This document shows, piece after piece, positions 4,057 through 38,032 of a stretch of DNA of 39,135 nt. The stretch is from Bacteroidota bacterium. GTDB lineage: Bacteria; Bacteroidota; Ignavibacteria; SZUA-365. The notes below the pieces were generated by a model. That model searched no databases. It had not been told where the DNA came from and worked only from the letters and a program-made list of their open reading frames with translations. Each line of letters starts with the position of its first letter. Positions within the stretch are counted from its first letter, which is position 1. A program made the position numbers and the translations under genes. The DNA lies in NCBI GenBank assembly GCA_003246455.1, contig QKAF01000002.1:1-39135 (forward strand), written 5' to 3'.

Positions 4057-7000
4057 ATGAATGTTCCGATATTCTTCGCCCTCATGGGTGGCATCATCCT
4101 GCTCGGATTCCTGGCGAATCTGCTGTTCAAGTGGACCAAGATTCCGAGCGTCCTGATGCTGATGGGCATCGGCGTGTTTCTCGGTCCGGTCACCGGCTGG
4201 CTCGCGTCGGATGCCCTGCTGACCATCGCGCCCTACTTCGGGACCATGGCGCTGCTGATCATCCTTTTCGAAGGCGGACTCGAACTCGATATCCGTACCG
4301 TCGTGCGCCAGGCGCCCAAGGCCGCGGCGCTCGCCGTCGGCGTGTTCGTGGTCAGCGTCGTACTGGTGATGGCATTCGGCGTGTTCGTCATGGAACTCAG
4401 CACCCTCAACGCGCTGATCCTTGCCGCGGTGCTCGGGGCCACAAGTCCGGCCATCTGCATTCCGGTGGTCTCGGGACTCAGCGTACGCGACGAAATCAAA
4501 ACGATCGTCAAGCTCGAATCCGCCCTCGGCGACGTGCTGCTCATCGTCTCCGTCTTGCTGCTGGTGGACTTCCATGTCTCCGGGACGCAGGGCATCGGCA
4601 GCGTCCTGATGAGCTTCATCACGAGCTTCGGCGTCGCGCTGGTGATCGCCACGGTGACCGGCGCGCTCTGGTCGCGCCTGATCGCTTGGATGGGAAAGGA
4701 GCCGCTGGCATACATGCTCACGCTCGGCTTCATCTTCCTGCTGTACTTCATGGTGGAGGAACTGCATGGCAGCGCCGCGATCGCGGTTCTGATGTTCGGG
4801 CTCATCCTGGAAAACATGCAGGTGATGACCGATCGCATCGGACTCCGCCTGCGGCAGTTCTTCGGTATCGACATCAAATCCGAGAAGTTCATTCTCAACC
4901 AGTTCATCAAGAACATCACCGAGGAAATCTCCTTTCTTCTACGGACCTTCTTCTTCGTCTACCTCGGGATGCTCCTGGATTTCGACGAACTCACCTGGAC
5001 CATCGGGCTCTTCATTCTCGGCATGGCGCTGCTGCTGTTCATCGGCCGCCGCGTGCTGATGGTGGGCTTCCGCCGCATCGGACGCGAGTTCACCGAGGGA
5101 GAAATGCAGGCGATCATGGCCATGCTGCCGCGAGGACTGGCCACCGCGGTCATGGCGCTTCTCCCGTTCCAGACAGGTCAGATCCCCGGCACCGAACTGT
5201 TTCCGATGTACGCCTTCGGCGTGATCGTACTGACGAATCTCTACATGACCGGGAGCGTGATGTTCGCGGAACGACGCCTGAGGGCGGAGCGGGAGCGCAG
5301 CGAGCAGCCCCTGGCGGTCGGCTACGCGGGCAGCACCGCGGCGGGAGAAATCCTGTTCGAGGAGGCGCCAGCACCCCGGAGCGATGCGGAAGCGTTCACC
5401 CGTACCGACACCGAATCCGCGGCTGAAGCGGAAACGCGCGACGCCCAGGGCGGGGACAAATGGCACTGGCGTCCCGCCTACGACGAGCGTTACCCTCCCC
5501 ATGAATCGGCGCCGTTCGCCGATGCGGACGATCGCGAGCGGGAGCCGCAGCCGCAGACATTCACCGAGTGGATGGCGCGCCTGTTCGGGATCCACGACGG
5601 TGACCGGGAACGCGGCTATCTCGAAGCGTATCGATCCGCGCATATCACCGAACCCCTGTACTGGGTCCAGGTGCTGCTCGCAGCGGGAATCACGACGCTC
5701 GGCCTCATTCTCGATCAGAGCGCCATCATCATCGGCGGTGCAATGATCATGCCGATCATGTTCCCGGTGCTCGCGGCGGGGCTCTCCCTCGCTTCGGGAG
5801 ATCTCTACCTTTTAATCCGGATCTTCTTCAAGGCCGCGCTGACCGTGTTTATCGTCGGACTGATATCCGCGGTGCTTTCCGACTTCCTCCCGTTTGCCGA
5901 AGTGACGAAGGAAATCGCCGCGCGGACCCGTCCCACGGTCATCGATTTCCTGGTCGCCCTGTTCGCAGGCATGGCGGGCGCGGCAACACTGTCGCGGAGA
6001 AACCGCTTCGTGCAGTTCCTGCCCGCGGCAATCATCGCCATCACCCTGCTTCCGCCGATCGCCGTCATGGGATTCGGCATCGCGAACGGAGGGTCGCCGG
6101 AAATCATCAAGGGCGGGGCCCTGCTGTTCACTGCGAACTTCTTCGCCAACATTCTGGGCGCGATGCTGGTTTTCCTGCTCGTCGGCATGCCGAAGGCCGC
6201 GGGCCTGGATGCGGTCCGTCGCTGGAAGGAAAAGGAACTGTCGCACCCGGCGATCAGCTTCGTCTTCGAGAAACTGCGTCTGAGCCAGGTCGTCGGCCGC
6301 ACGGGATCGGTCCGGGCGCGATTCATCGTCATCGCCCTCTTCCTCCTGATCCTGCTCATCCCGCTGCAGACCGCGCTGAATCAGCTTTCGCTGGAACTGC
6401 GGGCCCGGCGGGCCATCACCGACATCGCACGCTCGTTCGACATCAAGCACCGGTCGAGTCTCATCAACAGTTCGTCCCGCATCGGCGAGAATATGATCGA
6501 GGTGAAGCTGCAGGTCGCGACCAACAGCTTCTTCACGTCTGCCGATATCGCACGCTTCGAAGAGCGCGTGACCGACCGCACCGGCGTTCCCACGCGGCTC
6601 GACCTCGTGCAGTCGCTCAGTGACATCGGCAAAGGCAGCACGGTCAGCGAACTGCTGTCGCCCGGCCCGACCGGCGGCGCGTTCGGTACACGGACCTTCT
6701 CCGAGGCGGTCGGAGACCTGCGTTTCCAGGCACAGAGCATCCTTCGCAGCATTCCGCTTTCGAGCCGCGTGGAGATTCTCAGCATGAACGCCGAACTGAC
6801 GCTCGATACGCTGAGTCCGGCCATCAATTTCATCTATCTCGCCGACGAGCCGCTGACGGAAGACGCGCGCGACATTCTCGGAACGCTGATCGCCGGACGA
6901 CTTTCCCTCCCCGCATCCAGCCTGCAGTTCAACTGGTTCTCCAACCGCTACGCGTTCGAGGTGTCCGGCGCGGCAAAGTTCACGCCCGCCGACCGTGTCC

Positions 7001-7284
7001 GGCTCCGCAATCTGAACAACCTGCTGATGCGTTACCCGCAGCTGGCGCTCACCCTGCAGTTCCCCGACGCTCCACGCGGCGCCTATCGATTCGAAACGCA
7101 GCTGGCGGAGCTGCGTGACGAACTGCCGGTGGCGAAAGACAGCACGCGCGTCGTGGTGCTGCGTGCCGAGTCACCGAAAGACAGCCTCGTGTGCCATCTG
7201 CGCGTAAAGGGTCTGCTGCCGGGCAGCAGGCCGGGAAAACCCAGCGCAATGCAGCCGGGCGACGACATGAATCGCACGAGATAA
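4057..7284 (+). CDS. Cation/proton antiporter (CPA family) fused to DUF389 membrane domain
   Basis: This 1075-residue inner-membrane protein has three parts. Residues about 1-410 are a sodium/proton-exchanger-type transporter with roughly a dozen hydrophobic segments; the usual ATDP-like motif appears as GATSPAI near residue 127. Residues about 410-510 are a charged, probably cytoplasmic linker. Residues about 521-690 match DUF389 (SAIIIGGAMIMPIMFPVLAAGLSLASGD and later PAAIIAITLLPPIAV), with several further membrane segments. Residues about 740-1075 form a soluble alpha/beta tail of unknown role. CPA transporters usually exchange Na+ or K+ for H+; DUF389 has no established function. The start has AGGG seven bases upstream. 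One uninterrupted frame covers both domains, so the fusion is read directly. It stands alone, divergent from pfk. Confidence 0.88.
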   Translation: MNVPIFFALMGGIILLGFLANLLFKWTKIPSVLMLMGIGVFLGPVTGWLASDALLTIAPYFGTMALLIILFEGGLELDIRTVVRQAPKAAALAVGVFVVSVVLVMAFGVFVMELSTLNALILAAVLGATSPAICIPVVSGLSVRDEIKTIVKLESALGDVLLIVSVLLLVDFHVSGTQGIGSVLMSFITSFGVALVIATVTGALWSRLIAWMGKEPLAYMLTLGFIFLLYFMVEELHGSAAIAVLMFGLILENMQVMTDRIGLRLRQFFGIDIKSEKFILNQFIKNITEEISFLLRTFFFVYLGMLLDFDELTWTIGLFILGMALLLFIGRRVLMVGFRRIGREFTEGEMQAIMAMLPRGLATAVMALLPFQTGQIPGTELFPMYAFGVIVLTNLYMTGSVMFAERRLRAERERSEQPLAVGYAGSTAAGEILFEEAPAPRSDAEAFTRTDTESAAEAETRDAQGGDKWHWRPAYDERYPPHESAPFADADDREREPQPQTFTEWMARLFGIHDGDRERGYLEAYRSAHITEPLYWVQVLLAAGITTLGLILDQSAIIIGGAMIMPIMFPVLAAGLSLASGDLYLLIRIFFKAALTVFIVGLISAVLSDFLPFAEVTKEIAARTRPTVIDFLVALFAGMAGAATLSRRNRFVQFLPAAIIAITLLPPIAVMGFGIANGGSPEIIKGGALLFTANFFANILGAMLVFLLVGMPKAAGLDAVRRWKEKELSHPAISFVFEKLRLSQVVGRTGSVRARFIVIALFLLILLIPLQTALNQLSLELRARRAITDIARSFDIKHRSSLINSSSRIGENMIEVKLQVATNSFFTSADIARFEERVTDRTGVPTRLDLVQSLSDIGKGSTVSELLSPGPTGGAFGTRTFSEAVGDLRFQAQSILRSIPLSSRVEILSMNAELTLDTLSPAINFIYLADEPLTEDARDILGTLIAGRLSLPASSLQFNWFSNRYAFEVSGAAKFTPADRVRLRNLNNLLMRYPQLALTLQFPDAPRGAYRFETQLAELRDELPVAKDSTRVVVLRAESPKDSLVCHLRVKGLLPGSRPGKPSAMQPGDDMNRTR

Positions 7285-7401: not shown

Positions 7402-8193
7402 ATGGCAGATTACCAGAAACACCTGTACATGATCGTGTTTCCGATCAATGCGCTGGTCGCATCGCAGCTCGAACCGAATGCATTCGCCCAGCATTACACC
7501 ATCGGCAGCGCCCGCCACTTCCAGGGGAAGGTCATTTTCGCGGAGCTGGACATCAATTTCCGTGATCCGTATTTCATGATCGAGGAGTATCTCGAAAAGA
7601 CCGTCGCGCACGACGACGGCTCACCCAAGCGCACGAAGTTCATCTCTTCCTACCGTGTGCTCGAGCATGTTCCCTTCAGCGTGATCAAGAAACTCTACCT
7701 CGTCACGGTCAACGGCAAGGCGCTCGAATTGAGTCCGGGCCCCTACACCGCGGAAAACGTCCCGGGACTGATCCGGATTTTCCAGGAAGTCGCCCCCGTA
7801 CGCAACCTGATCGCCTCGCGGCTCGATCAGCGTTCTTTCGGCAAGTACATCACCATGGACACTGCGAAGGGCGCCTCAAAATTCTGTTTCACCCAGATCG
7901 ATCTGAACATCGAAGAATTTCTCGCGGAGAGCAAGCATCGCGAGGTCATCGTTTCGCCGATTCCTGACAGCAATCCGTACCGCCTGCTCGACTGTCTGCT
8001 GGAGCTGCAGCAGAATGCCGACAAGACGGTCAAGACCATCAGCCTGTCGTCGGTGCTGCACAGCATTTCATACCGCGTTCTGCGCCACGGATTCTGGTTC
8101 TTCGACAAGGATGACAACTCGCTGTTCTTCCCCATCCCCGACGTGCACGAACTGGAAACCACGCACTACGAATGGTGGAAAAACGCGCGCTAA
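7402..8193 (+). CDS. Unrecognised protein made of two copies of one domain
   Basis: This is a 263-residue soluble protein with no signal peptide or membrane segment that I do not recognise. It contains an internal duplication. Residues 20-52 (ASQLEPNAFAQHYTIG... ending AELDIN) align with residues 138-169 (ASRLDQRSFGKYITMD... ending TQIDLN) with one gap, and the motif SYRVLEH at 83-89 recurs as SYRVLRH at 223-229 in the same relative position. Each half is thus about 110-120 residues. It has its own promoter and a strong terminator behind it, so it is a single-gene unit. No Shine-Dalgarno is evident before the ATG. Context (antiporter on one side, aconitase on the other) gives no clue to the role, and I propose none. 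Confidence 0.8.
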   Translation: MADYQKHLYMIVFPINALVASQLEPNAFAQHYTIGSARHFQGKVIFAELDINFRDPYFMIEEYLEKTVAHDDGSPKRTKFISSYRVLEHVPFSVIKKLYLVTVNGKALELSPGPYTAENVPGLIRIFQEVAPVRNLIASRLDQRSFGKYITMDTAKGASKFCFTQIDLNIEEFLAESKHREVIVSPIPDSNPYRLLDCLLELQQNADKTVKTISLSSVLHSISYRVLRHGFWFFDKDDNSLFFPIPDVHELETTHYEWWKNAR

Positions 8194-14181: not shown

Positions 14182-17100
14182 TCAGGAGCATCCGCTGGTC
14201 GTGCCGCAGTCCTCGCAGACCGTGCACGCACCGTTGCGCTTGACGCGCGATGAGCCGCAGGATTCGCACATCTCACCGGTATAGCCCTGCGCCCGCGCAA
14301 CGAGAATCGTTTCGCTGTCCATCCGGCCGACTTTCTTCTCTGCGAGCACCGGTTCGGGACGTCCTGCAACCTCGCCGTTTTCCCGCTTGCGCGAGAGCGT
14401 CGGCGGCGTATTGAAGCTTGCGAGCGGCTGCTCCGTGGTTTCATCCACGGATTTCACATGCACGAAATCGGTACGGCCGAGGTATTCGTATCCCAGCACG
14501 CGGAAGACATAGTCGAGAATCGAGGTCGCATTCTTGATGGCTTCGTGTCCGATGACCACGCCCGCGGGCTCGAAACGCGTGAACGTGAAGGAGTCCACCA
14601 GCTCTTCGAGAGGCACACCGTACTGCAGCGCCTTTGAAGCGAGCACCGCGAAGCAGTTGAGCAGTCCCTTGAAGGACGCTCCTTCCTTGTACATGTCGAT
14701 AAAGATCTCGCCGAGGGCGCCGTCGTCATATTCGCCGGTGCGGAGGAAGACCTTGTGTCCGCCGACCACCGCTTCACGCACGAACCCGTGACGCTTCGCG
14801 GGGAGTTTCCGGCGTTCTGCGGCGCGGGCGACGATTTTCTCCTGTACTTCCTTCGGACCGATCTGCTCATTGAAATCGTTCTCATCGCCCATTTCGGCGA
14901 GAGCCGCGGCTTCGGGATCGCTGATCGTATTCAGAGGCTGCGAAAGCTTGCTGCCGTCGCGATAGATCGCGTTGGCTTTCAGCATCAGCTTCCATGACAG
15001 GGTGTATGCATGCTTCACGTCCTCGATCGTCGCGTCGGCAGGCATGTTGATGGTCTTGGAAATGGCGCCGGAGATGAACGGCTGCACCGCCGCCATCATG
15101 CGAATGTGTCCTTCATACGCGATGTAGCGCTGACCGCGCTTTCCGCATTTGTTCGCGGTATCGAACACCGGCAGGTCTGCCTTGCGGACATGCGGCGCGC
15201 CTTCGATCATCATGGTGCCGCACACGTATTCGTTCGCACGCTCGATCTGTTCGGCACTGAACCCGAGTGAGCGGAGCATGTCGAAATTCGGATCGACCAG
15301 CTGCTCGTCGGAGAAACCGAGTCGTTTGCAGACCGCGTCGCCAAGCACCCATTTGTTGAACGCCATGCGGAGCTCGAAGACCGTGTCGAGCTGCTTTTCG
15401 ATCTTCTCGATGGCCTCGGCGGAAAATCCTTTCTCGACGAGCGCATCGCGGTTGATGTCCGGACAGCCGGCGAGCGTGCCGTGACCCTTGATGTATTTTT
15501 CGACATCGTCGATCTGCTCGCGCGTGTAGCTGAGGAATTCGAGGGCCTTCGGTACCGACTGATTCACGATCTTGAAATAACCGCCGCCGGCGAGTTTTTT
15601 GAATTTCACGATGGCGAAGTCCGGCTCGATACCCGTGGTATCGCAATCCATGACCAGGCCGATGGTGCCGGTCGGCGCGAGCACCGACACCTGCGCGTTG
15701 CGATAGCCGAACTGCTCACCGAGCTGCAGTGCCCGATCCCAGCTCTCGCGTGCGGCACGGGTCAGGTTGGCCGGACACAGCTGCTCGTCGATCACCAGCG
15801 GCGTGATCGTGAGTCCTTCGTACTCGTTCTCCGCTGCGCCCCACGCGGCCCTGCGGTGGTTGCGGATCACCCGCAGCATATGGTCGCGATTGGCATCGTA
15901 ACGGGGAAATGCACCGAGGTCGCGCGCGATTTCCGCGGAGGTCGCGTAGGATTCGCCGGTCATGACCGCGGTGATGCCCGCGGCGACGGAACGCCCCTTG
16001 TCGCTGTCGTACGGCACGCCGGCGACCATCAGCAGCGATCCGAGGTTGGCGTAGCCGAGACCCAGGGTGCGGAACTGGTAGCTCTTCAGCGCGACGGCCC
16101 TGCTCGGGAACTGCGCCATGAGCACGGAAATTTCCAGCGTCAGCGTCCAGAGACGCACCGCATGACGGAACTGCTCGACTTTGAACTCGTGCTTGCTGTC
16201 GTCCCAGAAATACTTGAGGTTGAACGACGCGAGGTTGCAGGCGGTATCGTCGAGGAACATGTACTCGGAGCAAGGATTGGACGCGTTGATGCGGCCGTCC
16301 ACCGGACAGGTATGCCACTCGTTGATCGTGGTGTCGTACTGGATGCCCGGATCCGCCGATGCCCAGGCGGCATAGCAGATTTCGTCCCACAGGTCGCGCG
16401 AGCGAAGCGTTTTCGCGGTCTCTCCCGTCGTGCGGAAGGTCAGCGTCCAGTTGCCGTCGTTCTCCACCGCCTCGAGGAAGGGATTGGTGACGCGCACCGT
16501 GTTGTTCGAATTCTGACCGCTGACCGTGTTGTAGGCCTCGGATTCGTAATGCGTATCGAACTCGTCGAGGTCGAATTCCGTGACGCCCTGCTCGATCAGC
16601 TGCAGCGCGCGGAAAATATAGTTCTCACGCACACCCACGCGGCGCGCCTGGATGATCGCGATCTGGAGTTCCTTGTTCGTCTGGAAGTCGACCGAATCGC
16701 CTTTCTGCGCGGCCTGCATGATGCGATTGAGGTGCAGCTTGTTGATCTGGCTGCCGGTCACCAGCGCGGCGACTTTTTCTTCCTCGCGCACTTTCCAGCG
16801 GACGAAATCCTCGATATCGGGATGATCGACGTTGAGCACCACCATTTTCGCGGCGCGGCGCGTCGTCCCGCCCGACTTGATGGCGCCGGCGGCGCGGTCG
16901 TTGATTTTCAGGAAGGACATGAGTCCGGAGGAAATGCCGCCGCCCGAGAGGCGCTCGTTGCGGCCGCGCAGGTTGCTGAAGTTGCTGCCGGTTCCGGATC
17001 CGTATTTAAAGATGCGCGCCTCGCGGGTGACCAGGTCGAAGATACCGCCTTCGTTGACCAGGTCGTCTTCCACTGACTGAATGAAGCATGCATGCGGCTG

Positions 17101-17634
17101 GGGACGGCTGTACGCATCTTCCGACGCCACCACTTCGCCCGTTTCCGGGTCAGCGTAGAAATGTCCCTGGGACGTGCCGGTGATGCCGTACGCGAAGTGC
17201 AGTCCCGTATTGAACCACTGCGGGGAATTCGGCGCGGCCATCTGACGCAGCAGCGTAAACGCCATCTCGTCGTAGTAGTTCTGCGCGTCTTCCGCGGTGT
17301 CGAAATACCCGTTATTCTCGCCCCAGTCGCGCCAGCAGCCGACCATGCGATGCACCACCTGGCGAATGCTGGTTTCACCGCCGTAGAGCGGCTCGCCGCG
17401 TTCGTCCACCTTCTGCGCGCCGTCCGCATCGAGCAGCGGCACCCCGGCTTTTCGGAAGTATTTCTGCGCCAGGATATCGGTCGCCATCTGCGACCAATGC
17501 GCAGGCACTTCGATATCGTGCAGCTCGAATACGACACTGCCATCGGGGTTGCGGAGAACGGACGAACGCTTCGTGTATTCGAAACAATCGAAAGCGCTCT
17601 GACCGGGAAGGGTAAATTGACGCGAAATTTTCAT
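14182..17634 (-). CDS. nrdJ: Adenosylcobalamin-dependent (class II) ribonucleoside-diphosphate reductase
   Basis: It reduces ribonucleotides to deoxyribonucleotides with a radical generated from coenzyme B12, so DNA synthesis does not depend on oxygen. At 1150 residues it is of the long NrdJ type. Asn453, Cys455 and Glu457 in SNPCSEY form the Asn-Cys-Glu radical site; PTGTIG follows near residue 660. The C-terminus carries two CxxC pairs (CESCGSS and [10 protein letters not shown]), a zinc-ribbon-like tail that likely doubles as the redox-active cysteines. No intein is seen. No strong ribosome site precedes the ATG. A near-consensus promoter lies about 215 bases upstream, leaving a structured leader. 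No other reductase or B12 gene is in the window. Confidence 0.97.
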
Positions 17635-30785: not shown

Positions 30786-31259
30786 CTACTCGGGCAGCTT
30801 CCCGAAAATCTTCCACAACCAGCGATGGAAGGCATGGACGCTCTGTACGGGATCGGCGAACATGAGCAGGCATTCGCCGTGGACGGCGTCGACGCCGTTC
30901 TCGCGGCAGTACGCAACGGCGTCAGGGGATTCGGCTCCCTTCTGTATCCAGATACGCGGAATCCCGGCGGCATGCGCCTCCCGCACCAGCTTCTCTGTCG
31001 CCGCGGGTTTTACCGCAAGCACGAGACCGCCGACCGCCTCGGGCAGGGCGTCAAGCGTCGGGACGCAGGGCGCGCCGTCGATTTCCGCGGCCTCCGGATG
31101 CACGACATGCACGGTATAGCCTTTTCCGATGAGCTCCTTCAGCAGCGCGTTCCCAAATTTTTTCCCGCCGCGTGAAGCTCCCGCCAGTGCAAGCGTTTTC
31201 TGTGCCACGAAATCTTCGACGCGTGATCGTGTCACTGTCATTTCTGCCATGATTTCCAT
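30786..31259 (-). CDS. CoA-binding domain protein (YccU type)
   Basis: This is a 157-residue single-domain Rossmann-like protein. LALAGASRGGKKFGNALLKEL is the nucleotide-binding loop of the succinyl-CoA-synthetase-alpha-like CoA-binding family; GKGYTVHVVHPEA, GGLVLAVKPAATEKLV and RIWIQKGAESPDAV are further family blocks. Such proteins bind CoA, but their cellular role is unknown. Met4 or Met7 could be the true start. It is probably first in a pair with the glycosyltransferase. Confidence 0.9.
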   Translation of the reverse strand: MEIMAEMTVTRSRVEDFVAQKTLALAGASRGGKKFGNALLKELIGKGYTVHVVHPEAAEIDGAPCVPTLDALPEAVGGLVLAVKPAATEKLVREAHAAGIPRIWIQKGAESPDAVAYCRENGVDAVHGECLLMFADPVQSVHAFHRWLWKIFGKLPE

Positions 31260-31314
31260 CTCGGGTGTTGCGGAACGGACGAACCATCAAACTTACGAAA
31301 TTCGGAGCGGAATG

Positions 31315-33078
31315 TCAGGAGGAGGCAAGGAGCAGGTGCAGCATCGGCAGCAGCGAGGCATGAACCGTGGAATCCGCGGCGCCGGGAACGGCACACTCGG
31401 CTGGGAGATCGAAGTTCCCGCTCAGCCGTCCCTCCGAAAACGCCTTTCCGCTCCATATGAGATCGTAGCCGAGACTCGCCGCCCGGCGCGACAGTCGCGC
31501 GTGCAGCGCCGGCCATCTCTTCCGGAACAGCATCCCCTTCGCGCGCTCGATTGCCACCGGCAGCCGGAGCAGGTACGGATTGTCCGTCGGCCATGTCAGG
31601 ATATCGGAATAGGAGCGCGGAAGTCCCAGAAGCTCCGGCGCCAGTTTCCGGATGATCAGGCGCTGGGGATACTGGCCCCAGCGTTTGCGTTCCGTTACGC
31701 GCGCGATGACCGAAACATATTCGCGGTCCAGATACGGGGATACATATCGGAGGAAGTTGTTCTGCAGCAGCGACGCATCCGCTCCGTGGTTCGGCAGCAC
31801 GATCCGGACGTTGAATACATCAGCGCAGGCTCCGGGCGACGCATACTCCGCGGGATCAGGGATCACATTCCGAAGACACTCTCCCGCCACTCGGAGATGC
31901 TCGTCGGCATCAGGGACAAATCTGAGAAAGTCAGGCCGAAGCAGTGCCTGGAAAGCCGCACGGAAAAAGGCGTCCCGGCTTCGCGCTTTTCGGCTGTTGT
32001 TGCGAAGGAACCAGCGGCCCTCGATGGAGGTGTGCACGCCGTCCATCACGTAACGGCCCAGCGTAGCATACTGCGGAAATGCCCACATCACGTGATAGTT
32101 GTCGAAGGCGATCGCCCCGTTACTCGCGGAGAGAAACCGGTCAGCGCGCGCGTCGAGAGGAAGCGCGGACGGGAGCGCCACGAGGTGATGCCTCAGGTTC
32201 AGTCGCGATGCGACCAGGCGGGCGATGCGCTGATCATGTCCCGCGCGCACGGCATGCGTCGCAAACGGCAGATCGAGGCCTTCCGCGGCGACGGCGGCGG
32301 CCACGACCCGGCTGTCGAGACCGCCCGAGAGGGTGCAGATCATGTTTCCTTCCGCCTTCCGGTGCAGCTTGCGTACCGCGCTGCGGAAGGAGTCCACGAT
32401 GTCGTCATCGATCCCGCGGTATTCGGAGGGCTGCACGACCGGCGTAAAGTACTCTTCCTCGGAAACCGCCGTGGAATCCTGCATTCTGCGCACGCGGCAA
32501 ACCCGGGCGCGACCAAGCTTCCGAATATTCGGAGAGAGGGTCTGTCCGTCGAACGTGGTGCCGAACACCAGGAGCTGGCTTTCGGCTTCCCGGTTACGGA
32601 CCGTACTCCCCGCGGACATCGCCTCGGTGAGTGCGAGCAGCGATGTCGAGAACGCGAAGACGTCCCTGCTCTCATGGATGTACAGCGGCATCGTTCCCCA
32701 GGGATCCGTGATCAGCACCAGCTGCTCTTCCTCCGCGGCACAGGCGAGAAACATGCCGTTCGCCCCGGAATCGATTTCCCCGGCAGACAGGGCGAGAAGC
32801 GTGTGCGGATCGCGTTCGACACCCCAGTCGTCGAAGGCCACACCGCTGAACACGCCGCAAGCGCCGCGTTCCGCATCACGGGAAAGTCGGGTCACGGATT
32901 CGGACGCGGCGGTGATGATGCCGCCCAGCAGCACTGTCCCGGACGCCAGGGATTCCGTCCGGATTTCCTGTCCGTCGGAACAGCGCCGTTGATGCGCATG
33001 CAGGAAGCGCGCGACGTCTCCGGCGCCCTTTGCCGCTATGCCCAGGATTCCATTCGGCAGCACCGCGTCTTCCTCCAT
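31315..33078 (-). CDS. Asparagine-synthetase-like protein without the N-terminal glutaminase cysteine
   Basis: This protein has 587 residues from the ATG at 33078. The C-terminal half is an asparagine-synthase-type ATP-pyrophosphatase domain with SGGLDS at 251-256. The N-terminal half keeps the shape of a class II glutamine amidotransferase domain (GVFSGVAFDDW, DPWGTMPLYIHES at 125-137), yet the protein does not begin with the catalytic Met-Cys-Gly. It may therefore use free ammonia or an amine, or be an amide ligase of a specialised pathway (capsule or peptide modification). The frame is open up to 33474, but that part overlaps the next gene; a TTG at 33135 is another possible start. The neighbours give no pathway. 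Confidence 0.78.
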   Translation of the reverse strand: MEEDAVLPNGILGIAAKGAGDVARFLHAHQRRCSDGQEIRTESLASGTVLLGGIITAASESVTRLSRDAERGACGVFSGVAFDDWGVERDPHTLLALSAGEIDSGANGMFLACAAEEEQLVLITDPWGTMPLYIHESRDVFAFSTSLLALTEAMSAGSTVRNREAESQLLVFGTTFDGQTLSPNIRKLGRARVCRVRRMQDSTAVSEEEYFTPVVQPSEYRGIDDDIVDSFRSAVRKLHRKAEGNMICTLSGGLDSRVVAAAVAAEGLDLPFATHAVRAGHDQRIARLVASRLNLRHHLVALPSALPLDARADRFLSASNGAIAFDNYHVMWAFPQYATLGRYVMDGVHTSIEGRWFLRNNSRKARSRDAFFRAAFQALLRPDFLRFVPDADEHLRVAGECLRNVIPDPAEYASPGACADVFNVRIVLPNHGADASLLQNNFLRYVSPYLDREYVSVIARVTERKRWGQYPQRLIIRKLAPELLGLPRSYSDILTWPTDNPYLLRLPVAIERAKGMLFRKRWPALHARLSRRAASLGYDLIWSGKAFSEGRLSGNFDLPAECAVPGAADSTVHASLLPMLHLLLASS

Positions 33079-33173
33079 GCTGAAGATCTGTTTCAGATAC
33101 GCTGGTATGTTACTTCCCTGCAGGGACTTTCGCAATTTCCTGGCGCTGCGCCCCCGTGAGAAAGCAGCCGCGT

Positions 33174-34050: not shown

Positions 34051-36285
34051 TCAGGCCGGTTTGAGTCCCGCGAACTTCAGCACGAGGGTCTTTTTCCCGA
34101 CGGAGTCGAAGAGCACGACGCCGCGCGCCATGTCTCCGGCGCCCTGGATGGACAGCAGCTTGCCGCGTCCGAAGGTCGCGTGCATCACCGTCGAACCGAT
34201 GCCGATGTCGCCTTCGACCTGGGAATAGGATTCTCCGCCGCCCATCTGGCTGTACTCCGAGCGCGGCGCGGTTTTCCGCTTCGCCGCCGGAGCCGACGAA
34301 CGGCCGTTGCCGCCGAATCCCCGGCTTCCGAATGTGCTTCCGCCCGACACGTTCCTTCTGCGGGTGGAATCGCGCTGTACGACCGACGGATCGATCTCGT
34401 CGAGGAAGCGCGACGATACCTGCTCGAGCCGCTCGCCCCAGCGCACGCGCGAACGCGCATGCGTCATGTACAGCTTCTGCATCGCGCGCGTCATGCCGAC
34501 GTAGCACAGGCGGCGCTCTTCTTCCACTTCGTCACGTTCGATCGCCATCGAGGAGGGAAAGAGTCCCTCTTCCATGCCGACGAGGAAGATGACCGGGAAT
34601 TCGAGTCCCTTCGCAGCGTGCAGGGTCATGAGCGTGACTGCGTTGCGCGATTCGTCGAAGCTGTCGATGTCGGCGACGAGGGAGGCCTGCTCGAGAAACG
34701 CCTCGAGGGTGTTCTGTCCGTCGTCGGTCACGAAATCCACGATGGCGGAAAGCAGTTCCTGTACGTTGTCGATACGCATGCGCGCCTCGGCGGTACCCTC
34801 GTTCTTGAACGCGGTGACCAGTCCGAGTTCGTCGATCAGCGACCCGACCAGTTCGCCGGCGGAAATCTCACGGCGCAGCGAGGCGTATTTCTGCACCAGG
34901 CGGACGAACTCCTCGATGCGCTTTATGGCCGTGCCGGTCATGCCCGGCGCCTGGGCGACGTTGATCGCGGCGACGAACATCGGCACGCCTTCGTCCGCCG
35001 CGTAGCTGCGCAGACGGGCGATGGACGTCTGTCCGATGCCCCGGGTCGGATAATTGATCACGCGCAGCAGGGCCTCGTCGTCTTCGGGATTGACGATGAG
35101 GCGAAGGTAGCCGAGCACGTCCTTGATTTCCTTGCGGCGATAGAATTCCACTCCACCCACGATGGTGTAGGGAATGCCGCTGCGGCGCATGGCGTCTTCG
35201 ATCGCGCGGCTCTGAGCGTTCGTGCGGTAGAGAATCGCGAAGTCGTTGAGCTGCAGCTTGCGGCGGCGTGCTTCGTCCTGCATGCAGGTGACGATCTTGT
35301 AGGCCTCTTCCCCTTCGTCCGCCGTTTCCAGCACCGTGATCGGTTCGCCCGCGTCGTTGTCGGTCCACAGCGATTTCGGGATCTGCTTCTTGTTGTGCTT
35401 GATCACTGCGTCCGCGCCGGCGAGAATGTTTTTCGACGAACGGTAGTTCTGCTCGAGACGGAACACGCGCGCATCCTTGAAGTGCTTCTCGAATTCGAGA
35501 ATGTTGCGGATGTCCGCCCCGCGGAAGGCGTAGATGCTCTGCGCGTCGTCGCCCACCACGCAGATGTTGCGCTGCGCCTCGGCGAGACGACGCACGATCT
35601 GGTACTGGGCCTGGTTGGTGTCCTGGTACTCGTCGATCAGGATGTAGCGGAACTGCTGCTGATAGCGCTCGAGCACGTCGGGGTTGCTGTCGAAGAGATG
35701 GATCGGGTGGAGGATCAGGTCGTCGAAATCCATCGCGTTCGAGGCCCGCAGGCGCTTGACGTACTCGGCAAACACATCGGCGACTTTCTGCTCGAAAATC
35801 TCGAAGGCCTTGTTGGCGAGATCGGCCGGCGTCATCATGCGGTTTTTCGCGCTGCTGATCGCATGGCGCACGGCGGTGGGCGACACCTGCTGCGTGTTGA
35901 TCCCCATGTCGTTCATGATGCCCTTGATCACGCCGAGGGAATCCTCGGTGTCGTAGATCGAGAAATTGCGGTGAAAGCCGATGCGGTCGGCGTCGCGCCG
36001 CATCAGGCGCGCGAAGGTGGAGTGGAAGGTCCCCATCCAGATGCGCTGGGCGGCCTCGCCGGGCACGACCGATTCGATGCGCTCGCGCATCTCGCGCGCG
36101 GCCTTGTTGGTGAAGGTCAGCGCGAGAATATTGTGCGCGGGAACGCCCTGCTGCAGGAGATGGGCGATGCGGAAAGTGAGCACGCGGGTCTTGCCGCTGC
36201 CCGCGCCCGCGACGATCATGACGGGACCGTCAATGGTCTCGACTGCCTCGCGCTGGACGGCATTGAGTTTATTGAGAAAGGACAT
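34051..36285 (-). CDS. uvrD: UvrD/PcrA-type superfamily 1 DNA helicase
   Basis: This 744-residue 3'-5' helicase acts in nucleotide-excision and mismatch repair and removes proteins from DNA. Motif I is VAGAGSGKTRVL near residue 25, motif II is IDEYQDTN, and the conserved LMTLHAAKGLEFPVIFLVGMEEGLFP and RRLCYVGMTRA are motifs V and VI. After about residue 640 comes a basic linker, then the C-terminal Tudor-like fold of the PcrA group (GSTVMHATFGRGKLLSI, LVLKFAGLKPA). The ATG is nine bases after the lysS stop, so the two genes are almost certainly co-transcribed. Confidence 0.96.
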   Translation of the reverse strand: MSFLNKLNAVQREAVETIDGPVMIVAGAGSGKTRVLTFRIAHLLQQGVPAHNILALTFTNKAAREMRERIESVVPGEAAQRIWMGTFHSTFARLMRRDADRIGFHRNFSIYDTEDSLGVIKGIMNDMGINTQQVSPTAVRHAISSAKNRMMTPADLANKAFEIFEQKVADVFAEYVKRLRASNAMDFDDLILHPIHLFDSNPDVLERYQQQFRYILIDEYQDTNQAQYQIVRRLAEAQRNICVVGDDAQSIYAFRGADIRNILEFEKHFKDARVFRLEQNYRSSKNILAGADAVIKHNKKQIPKSLWTDNDAGEPITVLETADEGEEAYKIVTCMQDEARRRKLQLNDFAILYRTNAQSRAIEDAMRRSGIPYTIVGGVEFYRRKEIKDVLGYLRLIVNPEDDEALLRVINYPTRGIGQTSIARLRSYAADEGVPMFVAAINVAQAPGMTGTAIKRIEEFVRLVQKYASLRREISAGELVGSLIDELGLVTAFKNEGTAEARMRIDNVQELLSAIVDFVTDDGQNTLEAFLEQASLVADIDSFDESRNAVTLMTLHAAKGLEFPVIFLVGMEEGLFPSSMAIERDEVEEERRLCYVGMTRAMQKLYMTHARSRVRWGERLEQVSSRFLDEIDPSVVQRDSTRRRNVSGGSTFGSRGFGGNGRSSAPAAKRKTAPRSEYSQMGGGESYSQVEGDIGIGSTVMHATFGRGKLLSIQGAGDMARGVVLFDSVGKKTLVLKFAGLKPA

Positions 36286-36294
36286 GAAGCTCGC

Positions 36295-37806
36295 TTATTT
36301 CTCCGGGCGCATGGTCGGGAACAGGATGACGTCGCGAATCGATTCCGCGCCGGTGAGAAGCATGGTCAGACGGTCGATGCCGATGCCCAGTCCGGCCGTC
36401 GGCGGCATGCCGTATTCCAGCGTCTCGATATAATCCTCGTCGAAGGTCATCGCTTCGTCGTCGCCGCGCGCACGCAGACGCGCCTGCTCGGTGAAGCGCT
36501 CTTTCTGATCGATCGGGTCGTTCAGCTCGGAAAACGCGTTGGCGATTTCCTGTCCGTTGATGTACAGCTCGAAACGCTCGACCAGACCCTCTTCCGTGCG
36601 GTGCTTTTTCGCCAGCGGCGACAGCTCGAGCGGATAGTCGGTGATGAACGTGGGCTGAATGAGCTTGTCTTCGACGCGCTCGGAGAAAATTTCGTCGATG
36701 ATCTTTCCCGGGCCCGCGCTGTCCTCGAGATGCACATCAAGACGGCGAGCTGCGGCGCGAAGTCCGGCTTCGTCGAGTCCGCGAAGCTGCTCACCCGTAT
36801 GTTCGGCGATGGAATCGAACATCGTCAGCCGACGGAACGGCGGCGTGAAGTCGATTTCCTGTCCGCCCACCACCGCGATATTGCTGCCGTTCACCGCCTG
36901 GTTGATCGAGGAGAGCATCTCTTCGACCAGCTCCATCATCCACCGGTAGTCCTTGTACGCAACGTACAGCTCCATCATGGTGAATTCAGGGTTATGGTTG
37001 CGGTCCATGCCCTCGTTGCGGAAATCCTTGCTGATTTCGTACACGCCGTGGAAGCCGCCCACGATCAGGCGCTTCAGGTAGAGTTCGTCGGCGATGCGCA
37101 GGTACAGCTGAATGTCCAGCGCGTTGTGATGCGTGACGAAAGGACGCGCGGCGGCGCCGCCGTACAGCGGCTGCAGCACCGGGGTTTCGACCTCGATGTA
37201 GCCGCGGTCGTCGAGGAACTGCCGCATCCGGCGGATCAGCTGGGAGCGCTTGACGAAGGTCTCTTTCACCGACGGATTCAGAATGAGATCCAGCGGCCGC
37301 TTGCGATAGCGCAGCTCCTTGTCGGTGAACTGATCGAAGACCACCTTGTTGCCCTGCTCGTCCGTCTTTTCTTTGGGTACGGGCAGCGGACGCAGCGACT
37401 TGGCCAGCAGCACGAGCGACTGGGCGTGCACCGATACCTCGCCCGTGCGCGTGCGGAATACATATCCCGTTACGCCGATGATGTCGCCGATGTCGAGCAA
37501 CTTGAAGATGTCGTAGATTTCTTCGCCGAGATCGTCGCGCTTGGCATAGATCTGGATCTTGCCGGTGTGGTCCATGATATGCGCGAAGGATGCCTTGCCC
37601 ATGCGGCGCATGGTCATGATGCGTCCGGCGATCGCCACCGTGCGCTGCGGCGCTTCATCGGTGAAGCTCGCGAGCACCTCGGCGGCCTCCGCGTCCACGG
37701 GGTAATCATAACCGAACGCCGTGACGCCGCGTTCGAGCAGTTCATTGTATTCCTCGCGCCTGCGGCGCATCAGATCATTGAGGTCTTCGGTATGGCCTTG
37801 TTCCAT
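36295..37806 (-). CDS. lysS: Lysyl-tRNA synthetase, class II
   Basis: It charges tRNA-Lys with lysine. The protein has 503 residues. The N-terminal OB-fold anticodon-binding domain ([23 protein letters not shown]) covers residues about 55-165. Class II motif 2 is [23 protein letters not shown] and motif 3 is [15 protein letters not shown] near the C-terminus. The length matches E. coli LysS. Its start is followed upstream by a 273-base gap before the divergent tRNA-Arg. uvrD follows nine bases later. Confidence 0.97.
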
Positions 37807-38032
37807 CGGGAAATTCGTCTTGTTTGTTTCAATACTGTCGGACCTAAAACATACGGCGGGCGGGGCTGAAATACAAAGCGGAATAAACTGGCGGGCGGGT
37901 GGGGAGGAGGCCGCAAGGCCGAAGACTCTCCGGGGCGAGCAGGAGGCAAAACGCGGACGAGTAAATGAAACCTCTTTGATCCTATGTCCTAAGTCCTACC
38001 TCGCGCCTCGCACAACGAAGCGCGATCCACTC

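Follow-up and report, generated by a model that had tools for sequence, protein, structure and literature searches.

We tentatively propose that one gene in the genome of a Bacteroidota bacterium (class Ignavibacteria, lineage SZUA-365) encodes a single-chain ion-homeostasis protein, in which a cation/proton exchanger is joined to a channel-like permeation or sensing module formed by DUF389. The gene lies on a stretch of 39,135 nucleotides, the whole of which we call the window (GenBank assembly GCA_003246455.1, contig QKAF01000002.1, positions 1 to 39,135). The N-terminal half would be a CPA-type exchanger from a subfamily in which Ser replaces the aspartate of the ATDP motif, and a flexible cytoplasmic linker would tether it to DUF389, for whose six helices the models predict the channel fold of FNT proteins and aquaporins. 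The chain would end in a seventh helix and, in the periplasm, an alpha-beta tail that appears to terminate in a worn OmpA-like domain. We infer that DUF389 could conduct or sense a small weak acid, anion or neutral solute, and that it may be kept beside the exchanger so that the movement of solute or charge is balanced with cation/H+ exchange in one place. The fusion itself is genuine, old and uncommon.

DUF389 is spread across many phyla. The parts of the open-access literature available to us gave no function for it, mentioning it only in domain lists or for its expression, and a search by title or abstract returned nothing on the antiporter-DUF389 architecture or on the fold. The fusion links this domain with cation/proton exchange, and the fold predicted for it opens a possible channel role to experiment; together, an inherited exchanger fusion and a channel-like model lead to a few direct tests for DUF389. 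The fusion also draws attention to an antiporter subfamily that apparently dispenses with an aspartate needed in PaNhaP, an NhaP-type Na+/H+ antiporter.

Architecture of the fusion gene

The gene is a single open frame of 1075 amino acids with an ATG start and 0 internal stops. Its matches to PF00999 (Na_H_Exchanger; residues 17-394, E 1.5e-36, 126.5 bits against a Pfam cut-off of 26.2) and PF04087 (DUF389; residues 564-697, E 1.7e-22, 80.4 bits against 23.9) bear out a preliminary description of the sequence, in which one 1075-codon frame joined two membrane modules and a tail. A soluble tail is indeed present; it extends ~300 residues beyond the last predicted membrane helix (about 754-776), close to the length of about 330 first given. 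The NCBIfam models for DUF389 scored under their curated cut-offs (TIGR00271, 92.6 against 146.5 bits; TIGR00341, 63.5 against 94.75). Between the two halves, the linker is variable, with a mean pairwise identity of 0.34 among 7 orthologues and a length of 83-133 aa between two fixed flanking points. The features of the gene are as follows.

4057..7284, + strand (stop counted in the coordinates): whole fusion gene, 1075 codons; open frame, Pfam, full-length orthologues
4057..5301, + strand: antiporter module, residues 1-415; PF00999 match, nearest solved structures by sequence 4cz8, 4cza and 4czb
4435..4449, + strand: GATSP, residues 127-131; Ser130 aligned with PaNhaP Asp130
4516..4533, + strand: ESALGD, residues 154-159; Glu154 and Asp159 aligned with PaNhaP Glu154 and Asp159
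5302..5532, + strand: variable hydrophilic linker, residues 416-492; orthologue comparison
5653..6183, + strand: predicted DUF389 membrane domain, transmembrane helices TM1-TM6, residues 533-709; structural model and Pfam match (564-697, that is 5746-6147)
6316..6384, + strand: predicted seventh transmembrane helix (TM7), residues 754-776; boundary set by us inside model helix 752-793
6397..6936, + strand: tail repeats, two beta-beta-alpha-beta units, residues 781-960; predicted structure
6937..7209, + strand: fast-evolving tail end, OmpA-like in the model, residues 961-1051; model and weak PF00691 matches of relatives

Distribution of the fusion

We searched three overlapping genome samples, whose counts are not additive: the order (16 genomes), the class (294, threshold E<=1e-30) and an even sample of the phylum (296). 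In the order, a full-length fusion was found in 7/16 genomes, all within the window's family (f1; 7/12 of its genomes), and the frames of the six besides the window's measure 1079-1131 aa; in another member of the family (G009), a contig end cuts the gene and leaves the tail side alone visible. The window's gene was the sole fusion in the phylum sample (1/296). A restriction to one family, suggested by these two samples, was overturned by the class search, which found the full-length fusion in 12/294 genomes of four families and so provided the search for the domain pair in related genomes that had been called for at the outset. The five fusions outside the window's family (G481, G420, G404, G428 and G484) belong to three families (f59, f60 and f62) and have frames of 1012-1102 aa; the four that were scanned, all except G428, have both Pfam domains above the cut-offs.

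The preliminary description had named a sequencing-dependent join as grounds for refutation. Full-length frames in six other genomes of the family and five of other families exclude such a join. We found no point in favour of an assembly or frameshift artefact, and one open frame in 12 genomes of four families leaves that explanation with a negligible chance of being correct.

From named genomes of many phyla, 80 DUF389 loci were kept of at least 566 confirmed, and only one of the 80 (L106, not independent of order genome G005) carries the fusion. An initial scan of genome contigs found no relative, and viral contigs gave one weak antiporter match that was not used. One genome (G258) has a frame with DUF389 and tail (896 codons open) and no recognisable antiporter.

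The join had also been described as fixed, which the genomes do not support. In the sister family f3, two genomes (G013 and G014) have the antiporter half only, and the aconitase gene that neighbours the window's fusion lies next to it there too; in the third (G015), the locus is cut by a contig end. Within the window's family, the order search returned no match to the fusion protein in G002, G004 or G006, and no fusion-type antiporter was found in G004, G006 or G007, the last having only a distant stand-alone DUF389. G002, which is of the same genus as the window's genome, has the amylase, phosphofructokinase, 263-codon and aconitase genes in the same order with the fusion site empty: 664 bases without a fusion-protein match separate the 263-codon gene from the end of the phosphofructokinase match, which starts at residue 47 of that protein.

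The 263-codon gene (7402-8193, + strand) has no Pfam match above cut-off and no NCBIfam match. It is 83-93% identical in eight relatives, where it directly precedes aconitase, and it was not seen beside aconitase in f3, G004 (where the contig ends), G007 or G012. Because it is kept in G002, which is without the fusion gene, it seems tied to aconitase and not to the fusion. The aconitase gene of G014 (L040, 1990-4251) is in pieces, one with a TGA inside, possibly through an assembly error.

Origin and selection

In a tree with 20 stand-alone DUF389 rows, the corresponding halves of all 12 fusions fall into a single clade (support 100/99), which makes one ancestral fusion the likeliest origin. 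The antiporter tree joins the stand-alone proteins of f3 to the fusions of f1 (94/99, just under the program's star) and unites the remaining fusions in another group (96/98); its deepest branching is not settled and long branches were flagged, so that two separate fusions may be compatible with this tree taken alone. The simplest reading is one fusion, followed by loss of the DUF389 half in f3.

Purifying selection acts on both halves in the three pairs compared. The ratio of nonsynonymous to synonymous substitution rates (dN/dS) is 0.06-0.11 for the antiporter, 0.06-0.16 for DUF389, 0.06-0.20 for the tail repeats and 0.19-0.79 for the tail end, values that are rough because dS reaches 0.66-1.25 in these pairs. 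Mean identity within f1 is 0.76 in the tail repeats and 0.39 in the tail end.

Genomic context of stand-alone DUF389 genes

Of the 80 kept loci, 79 have DUF389 unfused to an antiporter of the window's type. An antiporter-profile search located a CPA antiporter within about 6 kb in 6 of these 79, each confirmed by Pfam. The number expected is 0.68 at the rate in 99 genomes of the phylum (P 8e-5); a rate taken from eight cyanobacterial and acidobacterial genomes, the former in the majority, gives 1.06 (P 8e-4) and rests on 54 matches, some of them gene fragments. Either rate derives from a small set of genomes; some of the loci are related to each other, which makes these probabilities rough. 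For immediate neighbours, a longest-frame rule, which one locus (L141) failed, gave 77 upstream and 75 downstream genes, and 150 were scanned with Pfam after the upstream genes of L116 and L184 had been dropped. Antiporters directly adjoin DUF389 in 3 cases among these about 150 neighbours, against 0.13-0.20 expected: L174 (26 bases apart, in the strand and order of the fusion), L109 (same strand) and L112 (divergent).

Other immediate neighbours, among the families listed, include TelA (5), MscS-type channels (2), BCCT carriers (2), NhaA (1) and ClC (1); unrelated families are also many, for example AMP-binding enzymes (7). The ten neighbours of three diverged fusions (G481, G420 and G484) include no ion-transport family except one MatE carrier. 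A role for DUF389 in ion or pH homeostasis is supported by these data. The preliminary description had argued for ion or pH regulation from a fixed fusion; that premise is not supported as worded, and the homeostasis part of the claim fits the antiporters found near some stand-alone DUF389 genes.

Alternatively, the two genes may have fused simply because they lay side by side, and the chain would then supply two ion-related proteins in equal amounts with no functional coupling. In favour of this, DUF389 and an antiporter adjoin as separate genes at the three loci named above, f3 manages without the DUF389 half, and the linker is long and unconserved. However, the join has survived deep divergence, with antiporter identities of 46-49% between the window's protein and those of the three other fusion families, and the two halves were not seen as separate neighbouring genes among the 28 class genomes matching at E<=1e-30. 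We consider this explanation improbable. Co-occurrence of the two domains elsewhere, on which the preliminary description had made its case depend, is borne out both by the fusions in three other families and by the three pairs of separate neighbours.

Two observations on these loci stand apart. At L174 (3346-5909, a Chitinophagales genome), separate antiporter and DUF389 genes lie in fusion order on one strand, and the antiporter keeps an ATDP-like motif; the order of genes is CBS-like, antiporter, DUF389, permease-like, MscS-like and channel-like, where names other than antiporter and DUF389 were read by eye from translations. Upstream of stand-alone DUF389, the family listed most often is TelA (toxic anion resistance; 5/75).

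The antiporter half

In PaNhaP, direct contacts to the ion come from Glu73 and Asp159, Asp130 reaches it through a water, Glu154 is paired with Arg337, and replacement of Asp130 or Asp159 by Ser abolishes transport (PMC4381880). In the fusions, the ATDP-motif aspartate corresponding to Asp130 is absent: Ser130 occupies the position in the window's protein and throughout the set (12/12). E154, R331 and R359 are kept in all 12 fusions, as is E72, which lies one position off PaNhaP Glu73; the PaNhaP counterparts of R331 and R359 are Arg337 and Arg362 (counted by hand in the alignment). Position 159 is D in the window's protein and in 10/12 fusions, and E in 2/12. From this conservation we infer that the antiporter still exchanges ions, and the ion chemistry of its subfamily should differ from that of PaNhaP.

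GATSP in place of an ATDP-like motif had been correctly noted at the outset; it is not peculiar to the fusion. The three closest stand-alone antiporters outside the order (39-40% identity) also have GTSPA, and the motif thus marks an antiporter subfamily and not the fusion. At greater distance, Ala occupies position 130 in the stand-alone relatives of G016 and G267.

Predicted fold of the DUF389 half

The fold and topology of the DUF389 half are predicted from AlphaFold models, one of residues 494-1075 (mean predicted local distance difference test score, pLDDT, 84.7) and one of residues 513-732 alone (pLDDT 90.2, predicted template modelling score 0.87). The model has 3+3 helices, with TM2 broken at IMPI (564-567). 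With the 513-732 model as query, the best 50 structures listed by VIA are all FNT-family proteins (including algal LciA; Z 10.1-11.7, 197-209 residues, 3.9-4.9 Å) or aquaporins (Z 9.1-10.2), the best FNT match having Z 11.7 over 200 residues at 4.1 Å. Foldseek ranked FNT proteins 1-14 and FNT proteins or aquaporins through rank 25 (probability 0.72-1.00), and the larger model returned the same families for the DUF389 region. FNT proteins and aquaporins share one hourglass fold, in which TM2 and TM5 of FNT proteins are both broken (PMC5525234). An internal repeat is also detectable: the halves of DUF389 align by hhalign at E 4.7e-4, with a score of 24.0 against at most 18.1 in 110 controls. Based on these comparisons, DUF389 likely adopts the FNT/aquaporin fold.

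Several observations count against this fold or against a pore. None of the Foldseek matches reached E 0.001 or below, and VIA warns that a Z under about 13 may mean no more than a widespread arrangement of helices. In the model, TM5 runs without a break, with a Pro-Pro at mid-helix, unlike the broken TM5 of FNT proteins, and the repeat test used on DUF389 gives much higher scores for aquaporin (70.9) and FNT (48.5). Profile comparison detected no sequence homology between DUF389 and FNT proteins or aquaporins. The stoichiometry of a one-to-one chain is puzzling, given that FocA assembles as a pentamer and PaNhaP as a dimer. Finally, the f59, f60 and f62 fusions keep only 12-16 of 26 checked DUF389 columns, and no other observation speaks more strongly against a pore common to every fusion.

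Sequence searches with the families themselves were likewise negative: PF01226 (FNT) gave no match at E<=1 and a profile-comparison probability of 0.3 on a scale of 100, PF00230 (aquaporin) gave no match, and the NPA motif is absent from residues 513-732. The failed profile comparison decides nothing, because the fold-sharing pair of FNT and aquaporin profiles also failed it. The aquaporin profile was built from 17/20 loci (L229 excluded for a stop in its slice, L219 and L230 left out) and the FNT profile from 8/11 (three below cut-off left out). A profile search of PDB sequences returned no DUF389 structure and one chance-level row.

The 26 checked columns are invariant or nearly so in 68 stand-alone members, and the structure alignment took 69 of the 80 kept loci. 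The window's protein keeps 24/26. The columns kept in the diverged fusions include prolines 566, 612 and 626 and D630, and those changed include R623 (4/5 fusions) and P666 (3/5), both invariant in stand-alone DUF389.

These losses also bear on the possibility that DUF389 is solely regulatory or scaffolding, sensing the envelope via the periplasmic tail or aiding exchanger oligomerisation, with no conduction. The altered fusions, of which the four scanned still match Pfam, count in its favour, and the tail repeats are well conserved in f1. Exchangers with long extra C-terminal parts are also among the nearest solved relatives of the antiporter half (NHE7, the sperm-specific exchanger and SOS1; chains of 1038-1333 residues), and in these proteins the C-terminal parts are regulatory. 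By contrast, the f1 fusions retain nearly all DUF389 invariants, beyond the needs of a scaffold, and most DUF389 genes in the kept loci are unfused (79 of 80), which argues that the domain has its own job. We regard a purely regulatory role as a credible possibility to which we give limited weight, and continue to favour, tentatively, a channel-like permeation or sensing module.

The seventh helix, tail and topology

We propose from the model that the tail is periplasmic and follows seven helices. The TM4-TM5 and TM6-TM7 loops are positively charged; with these loops inside, seven helices would place the tail outside the cytoplasm. Two charge features disagree with this orientation: the segment that directly follows TM7, which this topology puts outside, carries a positive charge in the window's protein (6 K+R, 3 D+E), and the one before TM1 is slightly acidic.

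The first tail repeat and the end of the TM7 helix resemble KH-like ribosomal domains (Z 9.3-10.4, 76-84 residues, 1.9-2.6 Å), and over a wider span of the 494-1075 model, Foldseek ranked the zinc transporters ZnT7/YiiP first. It also matched OmpA-like peptidoglycan-binding domains (probability 1.00, E 0.0067-0.067); Foldseek positions were not reported, and this match was placed at the tail end from the order of strands and helices. The window's tail has no Pfam family at E<=1, PF00691 included. Among nine stand-alone relatives, PF00691 matched below cut-off in five (L107, L108, L109, L110 and L112; best L112, 26.4 of 27.2 bits) and gave no match in L111, L115, L119 and L120. Our reading of the model is that the tail end may be a worn OmpA-like domain.

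Other features of the window

Two long frames on the + strand, at 31129-33159 (676 codons) and 34180-37869 (1229 codons), have no Pfam match at E<=1e-5 and are candidate genes. On the - strand, 14182-17634 encodes a class II (B12-dependent) ribonucleotide reductase of 1150 codons; a TSCPD domain lies close to the C-terminus of this protein.

Comparison with known systems

The antiporter half belongs to the same Pfam family, across its whole core, as PaNhaP and its close homologue (4cz8, 4cza and 4czb; NhaP-type Na+/H+ antiporters). It differs in Ser130 for Asp130 and in Gly or Ala158 for Asn158, and in carrying DUF389 and the tail. The best NCBIfam antiporter model for this half is the potassium/proton antiporter PRK05326 (residues 6-420), although its score of 92 bits falls far under the curated equivalog cut-off of 355.

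Cyanobacteria and Acidobacteriota encode long-tailed DUF389 proteins as separate genes (L107-L115; 572-641 aa), and these are the closest likeness to the C-terminal part. Over most of the stretch made up of DUF389, TM7 and the tail, eight of these nine are 28-31% identical to the fusion, and the ninth (L114) shares 36% over query residues 7-292 only; unlike the fusion, they have no antiporter in the same frame.

At the level of the backbone, predicted DUF389 resembles FNT channels (HSC, FocA and PfFNT) and aquaporins (AqpZ) in its 3+3 helices and broken TM2, whereas it differs in its unbroken modelled TM5 and in having neither detectable sequence homology nor a PF01226 or PF00230 match. The boldest extension of this comparison, which we consider rather unlikely, is that DUF389 would be a further hourglass-fold family and a true channel for small solutes or weak acids, and the protein described here a natural exchanger-channel fusion with mutual regulation within one chain.

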